The notes beneath the pieces were generated by a model, which was given only the letters and a program-made list of their open reading frames with translations, was not told the DNA's origin and did no database searches. A DNA stretch of 20,473 nt from a virus. A program made the translations under genes and the position numbers. The DNA is taken from the IMG/VR virus record IMGVR_UViG_3300042197_001097, positions 1-20,473 of that record, one strand, 5' to 3'. Of this stretch, positions 7,626 through 20,473 are shown piece after piece; positions within the stretch are counted from its first letter, which is position 1; each line of letters opens with the position of its first letter.

Positions 7626-7910
7626 ATGAAACAGCACTTATGGAAAGACAACGCTGCATGTTTGGGTCTTGAAAACAATTTATTTTTTGATAAATATGAA
7701 GAAGATGTAAAAGTTAGACCAATTGTAGATTCTATTTGTAATTCTTGTCCAGTTAGAAAAACTTGTTTTGCGGTCGGTATTTCTAATAAAGAGTGGGGAA
7801 TCTGGGGCGGTATTTATTTAGAAGGTGGAGATATATCAAGAGAGTTCAACAACCATAGAAATAAAGTTGGTTGGGCAGCAACTTGGGAATCTTTAACAAT
7901 GGAAAAATAA
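7626..7910 (+). CDS. WhiB-family iron-sulfur transcription factor
   Basis: The 94-residue protein has all four cluster ligands: Cys12, then Cys38, Cys41 and Cys47 (ICNSCPVRKTC), which hold a [4Fe-4S] cluster, and the following GIWGG turn (residues 58-62) that contacts the primary sigma factor. The usual basic C-terminal DNA-contact tail is short (REFNNHRNKVG). WhiB proteins are confined to actinobacteria and their phages, so this fixes the likely host group. Phage WhiBs such as mycobacteriophage TM4 WhiB (WhiBTM4) repress a host whiB gene and can block superinfection; a similar role here is inference. Its stop overlaps the next ATG. Confidence 0.92.
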   Translation: MKQHLWKDNAACLGLENNLFFDKYEEDVKVRPIVDSICNSCPVRKTCFAVGISNKEWGIWGGIYLEGGDISREFNNHRNKVGWAATWESLTMEK

Positions 7911-19373: not shown

Positions 19374-19549
19374 TACTTTGTTAACTCCTTTTCAATACCT
19401 TGAATAGTTGGGCAAGGATAAGGCTTCTTGTCTTCTTGGCATCTTTTTACCAAGGTCCCCTCTGGAATATGAAGTTCGGCGACAGCACGAAGAGCCTCAT
19501 CTAAATTAAAAGATCCTGATGCAGATATAAGGTTTGATATATTTTTCAT
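19373..19549 (-). CDS. 58-aa hypothetical protein (first gene left of the repeat region)
   Basis: The product MKNISNLISASGSFNLDEAL, then RAVAELHIPEGTLVKRCQED, is an alpha/beta mini-protein of unknown function with two Cys near the C-terminus. ATG 19549 is six bases after a TATGAT box with TTGCTT -35, so it is leaderless. It contains one copy of the repeated octamer AAGGTTTG (19529-19536) in its coding sequence. Confidence 0.68.
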   Translation of the reverse strand: MKNISNLISASGSFNLDEALRAVAELHIPEGTLVKRCQEDKKPYPCPTIQGIEKELTK

Positions 19550-19555
19550 CACTCA

Positions 19556-19584
19556 ATCATATCAAACTTCGACGGTAAAAGCAA
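19556..19584 (-). promoter_or_regulatory. Leftward promoter at the edge of the repeat region
   Basis: Minus-strand TTGCTT (19584-19579), 17-bp spacer, TATGAT (19561-19556) preceded by TGA, then six bases and ATG 19549. The first rightmost promoter before the noncoding repeat region. Confidence 0.65.
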
Positions 19585-19706
19585 GGCGCAAAATAGAACT
19601 AACAAACCTTCCCCTGCCCAAAATGGGCAATAGCGGTTAATAACCTAAATTCGGCGGGTATAGAAAGAATGTCGTAATACCCCCAGTGTAATAACAAACC
19701 TTGTAT

Positions 19707-19735
19707 GCCAGATATCCCAGATAGCCAGATATCCC
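19707..19735 (+). repeat. Direct repeat GCCAGATATCCC, two copies 17 bases apart
   Basis: GCCAGATATCCC at 19707-19718 and 19724-19735, each containing the palindrome GATATC, and adjacent to the repeated octamer at 19743. A pair with 17-bp spacing would place protein sites at about 1.6 helical turns. Confidence 0.75.
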
Positions 19736-19757
19736 TGATATGAAGGTTTGTCAACTA

Positions 19758-19800
19758 TGTCCAATAACCCTGGTTTGGTATGGACAATATGGATCCAGGG
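19758..19800 (+). repeat. Nested inverted repeats
   Basis: TGTCCA (19758-19763) pairs with TGGACA (19781-19786), and CCCTGG (19768-19773) pairs with CCAGGG (19795-19800). The two hairpins overlap and exclude each other. On the minus strand the first includes TTGTCCATA (19787-19779), one base from a DnaA box. Confidence 0.65.
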
Positions 19801-20100
19801 TGATGGTTTTATACCCGCTGAAATAGGCTATAAAGGCTGATTTAAGGGGTTGTAGGGTTTGGCATAGACAAATTATTTCTTACTGATATTTTTTTGATAT
19901 GGTTTTGGTGGAGGAAAGTGGAGTAAAGTGGGTGATTGAGCGTTTTTATAGATGGCGTCGTAATCCCCTGGCTGCCAAACCTCCTATCCCCAAACCTTCC
20001 AAACCTTCAAACCTTCATAGCGGGGCATGCATTATACTCTCAAAACCATGGTTTGTCAAACCTTTTTATCTTAAAAACCCCCTATAAAAATGTCCAGAAA

Positions 20101-20120
20101 ATGTAGGAAAATGTAGGAAA
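20101..20120 (+). repeat. Tandem ATGTAGGAAA, two copies
   Basis: ATGTAGGAAA at 20101-20110 and 20111-20120, exact period 10, inside an A-rich tract that runs to about 20190. Confidence 0.75.
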
Positions 20121-20225
20121 AACCCCAGAAAAAATATAGAAAGGTTTGGTTATTATGGTAAAAAGTTTAAATATTCTACGATTTAAATTCCCGCTTCGTA
20201 ATGTCTAATAGTACTGTGAAACAGC

Positions 20226-20240
20226 GCCGCCACGGGCGGC
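20226..20240. repeat. GC-rich hairpin
   Basis: GCCGCC (20226-20231), loop ACG, GGCGGC (20235-20240). A 6-bp G+C stem in an AT-rich setting; no T-run follows on the plus strand and only TGTTTC on the minus strand. Confidence 0.6.
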
Positions 20241-20250
20241 AGAAATGGGC

Positions 20251-20270
20251 GGGTATAAAAAGATATACCC
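20251..20270. repeat. Palindrome GGGTATA ... TATACCC
   Basis: GGGTATA (20251-20257), six bases, TATACCC (20264-20270). A 7-bp inverted pair next to a CGGGTATA-type element; could be an operator or hairpin. Confidence 0.55.
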
Positions 20271-20301
20271 CATATCACTAGTATAACAATACACTGGATA
20301 C

Positions 20302-20450
20302 AAGGTTTGAAGGTTTGTCATGAATCTGGAAAATTTTTCAAACCTTCGTAATGTTTTTTTCAAAAATAAGGTTTGGAAGGTTTGTCCACAATCTGGGATT
20401 TTTTGAAATGGGTTCTTAATGTCTTTTCGTAAATAAGGTTTGAAGGTTTG
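20302..20450 (+). repeat. ~67-bp tandem repeat units
   Basis: Paired octamers begin at 20302, 20368 and 20435, a period of 66-67 bases. Units 1 and 2 share the pair, then TC, an AATCTGG element and an AATTTTTT/ATTTTTT tract before AAT and the next pair. The third unit runs off the window end. Repeat count beyond the edge is unknown. Confidence 0.8.
20382..20390 (+). other. Actinobacterial-type DnaA box TTGTCCACA
   Basis: TTGTCCACA at 20382-20390 matches the DnaA box form reported for actinobacteria (TTGTCCACA in Mycobacterium and Streptomyces). A second, 8/9 match, TTGTCCATA, is on the minus strand at 19787-19779. One exact 9-mer could occur by chance, but its place inside the second ~67-bp repeat unit, with the octamer sharing its TTTG, is suggestive. 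Confidence 0.5.
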
Positions 20451-20473
20451 GTAAACAAATACCCGAGCCATTC

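Follow-up and report, generated by a model that had tools for sequence, protein, structure and literature searches.

A conserved noncoding region, probably a replication origin, in actinobacterial phages

The noncoding region at the end of a virus fragment of 20,473 bases (IMGVR_UViG_3300042197_001097, the whole of which is called here the window) is probably a phage replication origin, iteron-plus-DnaA-like in its parts and fused with a strong promoter and a predicted site for the host regulator MraZ. The phages concerned are actinobacterial phages of about 90-115 kb related to the Stanwilliamsviridae. The region had previously been described as a candidate origin or master regulatory site. 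Both readings survive and the evidence suggests a combination of them, but where a choice is made it leans towards the origin. The record ends inside the region, so that its right flank is cut. The region recurs as a block of 0.6-0.9 kb in 106 non-redundant viral relatives, always with the same order of parts: DnaA boxes (in 64 of 105 relatives), an AT-rich element, an MraZ operator, and leftward then rightward octamers. A leftward sigma70 promoter reads through the AT-rich element and the MraZ operator (Table 1).

Relatives were collected by scans with different anchors. Viral contigs scanned with AAGGTTTGAAGGTTTG returned at least 119 stretches, against 39 in a control scan with the octamer read backwards. 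Among the matches listed, 84 octamer-selected loci, the window counted, have at least six octamers inside 1 kb, and several repeat the octamer order and spacing of the window; this set also takes in unrelated phages. A second, octamer-independent scan with the AT-rich element and AAAGTGGAG yielded 115 regions, and a wider anchor yielded 194, or 106 after removal of redundancy. The anchors of these later scans were the AT-rich element and GTGGAG, and the conservation of both is partly due to this choice of anchors. Of the 62 octamer-selected loci with full flanks, 32 have the AT-rich element (at most two mismatches), 40 an MraZ-type box, 42 a perfect promoter and 30 at least two DnaA boxes. Each complete or long genome examined has a single such cluster; no octamer cluster was found in the relative G005 (L030).

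When the window is aligned with five relatives, conservation spans the entire noncoding region, beyond the repeats alone. No conserved ORF was identified in this region, either in the alignment or in a profile over 57 non-redundant regions. An ATG-started ORF of at least 60 aa occurs somewhere within it in 25 of the 57 loci. Two overlapping ORFs of the window show conservation at the DNA level in more than one frame and were judged probably not to be genes, which disfavours a coding explanation. The small genes of the window run leftward away from the region, as the preliminary description stated. In relatives the genes to the right of the region are also leftward, that is, directed towards it; the region thus lies inside a leftward gene block and not at a point of divergence. 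The window region has no DNA match among annotated phages. The corresponding region of a complete circular relative (IMGVR_UViG_3300043409_001491, hereafter G001; 105,901 bases with a 127-base end overlap) has only short DnaA-box matches among them, in Klebsiella and Proteus phages, and none in plasmids.

Table 1 Features of the conserved noncoding region (positions of the window)
Feature	Positions	Strand	Remarks
Noncoding conserved region (candidate origin and promoter)	19553-20473		Alignment with five relatives; profile over 57 non-redundant regions
Left octamers (19603 minus, 19695 minus, 19743 plus)	19603-19750		Common to close relatives only
AT-rich element TTACTGATATTTTTT, candidate unwinding element	19880-19894	+	2-5 DnaA boxes immediately precede it in 64 of 105 relatives, none in the window
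Predicted MraZ operator GTGGAGGAAAGTGGAGTAAAGTGGG	19908-19932	+	Three GTGG units, 10-bp period
GATGGCGTCGTAAT, first unit of the TCGTAAT motif	19951-19964	+	Without the usual GTC end in the window
Three adjacent leftward octamers (19991, 20000, 20008)	19991-20015	-	Just downstream of the predicted transcription start
Perfect sigma70 promoter (TTGACA 20059-20054, 17 bp, TATAAT 20036-20031)	20031-20059	-	Predicted start near 20024
Octamer overlapping the -35 element	20057-20064	-	
First rightward octamer	20141-20148	+	Position conserved
CCCGCTTCGTAATGTC, unit of the second conserved motif TCGTAATGTC	20190-20205	+	
Right octamer array (20302, 20310, 20339 on minus, 20368, 20377, 20435, 20443)	20302-20450	+	

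The octamer array

The preliminary description counted fifteen exact octamers in about 850 bases, the left ones mostly in complement and the right ones mostly in plus orientation, with only a few single copies elsewhere. This account holds throughout: fifteen copies of AAGGTTTG lie at 19603-20450, and their orientation is broken only by the plus copy at 19743 on the left and the minus copy at 20339 on the right. A sixteenth copy stands near the cluster at 19529-19536, within a small leftward ORF, and the remaining seven are scattered singly. In total, exact AAGGTTTG/CAAACCTT occurs 23 times in the window, against a mean of 1.44 expected from 100 dinucleotide shuffles, the largest of which gave 7. 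A genome-wide octamer excess over base composition was also considered, and outside the cluster it is accounted for by the octamer's own 7-mers.

The proposed search for the octamer in related phages finds clusters that are present and strictly ordered. Over the 106 non-redundant regions, octamers between 0 and +200 from the start of the AT-rich element are 230 on the minus and 16 on the plus strand, and those between +200 and +760 are 362 on the plus and 39 on the minus strand. An 8-bp lattice fits the distances between same-strand octamers, degenerate copies included. Some relatives lack AAGGTTTG but have the same promoter and MraZ box; they carry ATGGTTTG 6-11 times per region, and further replacements are AATGTTTG in one relative and GTGGTTTG in another. 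By octamer type, 83 of the 106 regions are AAGG, 12 are ATGG and several are mixed. Drift in the specificity of a binding protein would be expected to change the whole array, so this replacement argues for a phage protein and suggests a co-evolving, probably phage-encoded binder. No octamer pairs were found in six Microbacteriaceae genomes and no arrays of three in 297 genomes of the class of Aquiluna. Together with the array-wide variants in relatives, this disfavours the octamer as the site of a host protein.

Clusters of AAGGTTTG also occur in apparently unrelated phages (L008 2055-2240, L032 1687-1959, L041 2879-3212; also L018, L026, L058, L086 and L121), where they lie between an HNH-type gene and small/large terminase-like genes, with no DnaA boxes, AT-rich element or MraZ box. 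L041 has a tandem TATAGCCTACCAAACCTT, and L075 and L118 have looser octamer clusters near a terminase. Such clusters beside terminase genes count against an origin and would be congruent with a packaging or partition site, at which the octamers would be recognised by a terminase or a segregation protein. Nevertheless, in the phage group studied here the terminase gene is far from the region and no partition genes were identified, and the DnaA boxes, the MraZ box and the promoter would be left unexplained, which makes this scenario very unlikely.

DnaA boxes and the AT-rich element

The DnaA box TTATCCACA has a single orientation beside the AT-rich element. In the 106 non-redundant regions, the 200 bases up to the start of the element hold 193 copies on the plus strand and none on the minus strand; the remainder of the region holds 2, and 55 more are found elsewhere in 1.01 Mb. 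Neighbouring boxes are most often 12, 11, 33, 34 or 21 bp apart, a helical spacing. Of the 105 loci with a full left flank, 64 have at least two boxes, 54 at least three and 38 none. The window belongs to the last kind: it has no TTATCCACA, and its lineage lacks the box beside the AT-rich element even at one mismatch. If an oriC-like origin is taken to need three or more DnaA boxes at a mean distance below 100 bp, those 54 relatives have such an arrangement and the window does not. An AT-rich element, as expected of a DnaA-dependent origin, is present and the boxes directly adjoin it in relatives, its role in unwinding being putative. A DnaA-trio was looked for by eye only, and no clear run of triplets was seen.

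The DnaA-type box reported in the window is real (TTGTCCACA at 20382-20390), but it is not of the conserved kind and at that place occurs in the window only. The conserved AT-rich element of Table 1, the MraZ operator, the promoter and the DnaA boxes of relatives lay outside the reach of the preliminary description. As a separate observation, tandem DnaA boxes at L070 3963-3999 match stretches of 37 bp, for the most part without annotation, in 44-46 kb phages of Klebsiella and Proteus (H51-H60), suggesting that DnaA-box tandems may also occur in other phage groups.

The promoter and neighbouring motifs

The sigma70 promoter with its 17-bp spacer is found on the minus strand with 12 of 12 consensus positions in 83 of the 106 relatives and with 11 of 12 in a further 21. 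The main rival to the origin is a master region for transcription control that has no origin function. In it an early, strong leftward promoter would be governed by a phage repressor or activator bound to the octamers around it in the manner of stoperators, with host MraZ and DnaA acting as transcription factors. The promoter is perfect, one octamer sits on its -35 element and three lie just past the start. MraZ is a transcription factor whose operator normally stands at promoters, the octamer changes array-wide as in repressor-operator pairs, and no skew signal is seen. Yet tandem same-strand DnaA boxes beside an AT-rich element are parts of an origin, the octamers extend hundreds of bases past the promoter, each genome has only one site, and a large gene gap is seen in cultured relatives too. 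A control region of this kind is therefore a serious possibility, to which we give a distinctly smaller probability than to an origin.

The second motif, TCGTAATGTC, has a third unit in the window at 20346-20355, beyond the two in Table 1 (19951-19964 and 20190-20205). It usually has two or three copies per region, on the same strand throughout. TCGTAATGT occurs 208 times in the 106 non-redundant regions, every time on the plus strand.

An inverted repeat (TGTCCA/TGGACA) lies to the left of the AT-rich element, at 19754-19806 of the window. Both of its arms are changed in relatives (TGTGCA/TGCACA; AGGC/GCCT in L192), and it is confined to part of the lineages without DnaA boxes. A pseudoknot was considered and rejected, as its second stem is invariant and some relatives lack an arm. 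The leftward transcript could itself be the product, in the form of a conserved regulatory RNA, and the hairpin block whose two arms change together in some relatives would fit this. Several relatives nevertheless lack one hairpin arm, the conserved blocks resemble protein-binding sites, and Rfam has no match in the region, its matches in the window being two tRNAs only. We consider an RNA product the most improbable of the alternatives.

A predicted MraZ operator

The published MraZ core, (AAAGTGKN3)3 (PMC5282649), is fitted by the window at 19908-19932 with the 10-bp period. In bacterial and archaeal genomes (one for each of 84,980 species), GTGGAGNAAAGTGGAGNAWAGTGGG has 63 exact matches, and in 57 cases the match immediately precedes an ORF that bears the MraZ signature; the genera include Microbacterium, Aquiluna and Arthrobacter. 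In viral contigs it has 69 matches, of which 58 adjoin octamers. The other 11 mostly have the same AT-element start, promoter or DnaA boxes, and no mraZ follows downstream of any of them. Within the octamer-selected loci, the regions (121 kb) contain 37 three-unit boxes and the flanks (623 kb) none. Neither an mraZ nor a dnaA gene was found in 23 phage records; host MraZ is therefore the most likely binder of the predicted site, if it is bound. A search of open-licence papers found neither a phage nor an origin reported to carry an MraZ operator, nor any report on DnaA boxes in actinobacteriophages, which is weak evidence of novelty.

Another scenario is that the sites are decoys: the phage DnaA boxes and MraZ operator would titrate host DnaA and MraZ, so that host replication slows and division changes. 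The occurrence of sites for host proteins that have no phage homologues is in line with this. On the other hand, each genome has just a few DnaA boxes and a single MraZ box, which is little for titration until many phage copies are present, and the octamers, the promoter and the AT-rich element would have no explanation. A decoy function is thus improbable.

Genes, host and cultured relatives

WhiB-like proteins are a mark of actinobacterial phages. One was recognised by eye in the window (7626-7910) from its four spaced cysteines and points to an actinobacterial host. The two tRNA genes matched by Rfam are adjacent, at 2106-2254. In the complete relative G001 the one cluster occupies 23.9-24.7 kb, within a block of leftward genes, and genes for a DnaB-like helicase, a primase, DnaE and a presumed terminase lie at 89-103 kb; no DnaA gene was found in this genome. 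Its DnaE is 52-54% identical to that of the Streptomyces phages BillNye and Wakanda and of other Stanwilliamsviridae.

In BillNye, four exact TTATCCACA lie within 290 bases (119428-119715), mostly between annotated genes. Parts of this region are shared by 35 Streptomyces phage records, nearly all without an annotated feature under the match. Gaps that hold no annotated gene, with three TTATCCACA each, occur in TunaTartare (991 bases) and Wakanda (1,372 bases). The octamer and the MraZ box are absent from the stretches read of these three phages. A separate, unannotated stretch of about 96 bases is about 80% identical between BillNye (L252 19570-19665) and the tectivirus Forthebois (L318 3001-3098); it is thus common to tailed Stanwilliamsviridae and an 18-kb tectivirus, which belong to unrelated virus realms but share a host genus.

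Two small conserved proteins adjoin the region in nearly all relatives (L113 1125-1394 and 1378-1614, minus strand). Their structure models have pLDDT values of 91 and 83. Considered as initiators, these proteins, p77 and p89, have no family and no significant fold match and so are not supported in that role.

Evaluation of the origin hypothesis

The observations that speak for an origin are the excess and order of the octamers, the same-strand DnaA boxes, the clusters in gaps of cultured relatives, the promoter and the replacement of the octamer. G001 adds to them, as it has one cluster and encodes a DnaB-like helicase, a primase and DnaE but no DnaA. Several points speak against an origin: DnaA boxes are missing from the window lineage and from about a third of relatives, the 8-bp unit and lattice are unlike the 17-22 bp iterons of plasmids, and no initiator was identified, the adjacent conserved proteins having no significant fold match. 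The GC-skew check advised by the preliminary description shows no clear switch at the region, neither in GC and third-codon skew around it in four relatives nor in the plain GC skew of BillNye. An origin is nonetheless favoured over a pure control region because the features found are those of which iteron-plus-DnaA origins and oriC are made: an AT-rich element with adjoining DnaA boxes, an array of repeats, a promoter nearby and occurrence once per genome.

If the region is an origin, a phage protein would bind the octamers and, together with host DnaA where boxes exist, melt the AT-rich element; in the window lineage the octamer-binding protein would act without DnaA boxes. Transcription from the leftward promoter may aid opening or priming, and the phage's own DnaB-type helicase, primase and DnaE polymerase would then take over. 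With octamers on the -35 element and at the start site, the same protein could regulate the promoter, and repeats over the -35 element fit autoregulation. Host MraZ, about 14 bp from the AT-rich element, might block or gate one step. It is conceivable, and put forward here with considerable reserve, that MraZ at the phage origin reports the building of the division machinery and so permits or blocks the opening of the origin or the activating transcription. As lineages differ in their use of host DnaA, one origin family would show a switch from a host initiator to a phage octamer binder.

Should the origin hypothesis be right, it would mark the replication origin of a widespread group of uncultured aquatic actinobacterial phages, point to the same, unannotated site in their cultured Streptomyces relatives, and provide an unusual viral origin that carries an operator for a host cell-division regulator. 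The MraZ site, with the DnaA sites of most relatives but not of the window, could couple the copying of phage DNA to the condition of its host. Because about one relative in three has lost the DnaA boxes, a change in initiator dependence would become testable between close relatives.

Comparison with known systems

The stoperators of cluster A mycobacteriophages are repeats of about 13 bp, dispersed over the genome and bound by a known repressor. The octamers resemble them as short asymmetric repeats that change together between lineages, but are clustered in one place and have no known repressor.

Iteron-plus-DnaA origins of plasmids and phage-plasmids, such as RK2 oriV, the P1 origin and pSC101, have iterons of 17-22 bp in helical phase (PMC4980987). 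The candidate origin shares with them an array of direct repeats at one site per genome, an AT-rich element, a nearby promoter and, in most relatives, host DnaA boxes of fixed orientation. It differs in its 8-bp repeats on an 8-bp lattice, its built-in MraZ operator, the lack of an identified Rep gene, the apparently lytic nature of the phages and the absence of DnaA boxes from the window lineage. That the region works like an iteron origin is therefore better supported than its membership in the iteron class, as its unit length and phasing depart from those of that class.

Bacterial oriC combines DnaA boxes with an unwinding element (PMC7561715), and the 54 of 105 relatives with three or more TTATCCACA directly beside the AT-rich element are similar in this respect. 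No clear DnaA-trio is seen by eye, however, the octamer arrays are additional, dnaA is not adjacent, and the window lineage has no boxes. The predicted MraZ operator, compared with that of the dcw cluster (PMC5282649), has the same three GTGG units at a 10-bp period and is letter-identical to sites upstream of mraZ in Microbacterium, Aquiluna and others. It stands, however, in a phage noncoding region and not before mraZ; it lies about 95 bases downstream of the leftward promoter, to which it is oriented in reverse. Finally, the gaps of the Stanwilliamsviridae phages BillNye, Wakanda and TunaTartare are GC-rich, with boxes on both strands and no octamer array or MraZ box in the stretches read, but they share with the region studied here related replication proteins, a gene-poor gap of about 1 kb and a cluster of exact TTATCCACA.
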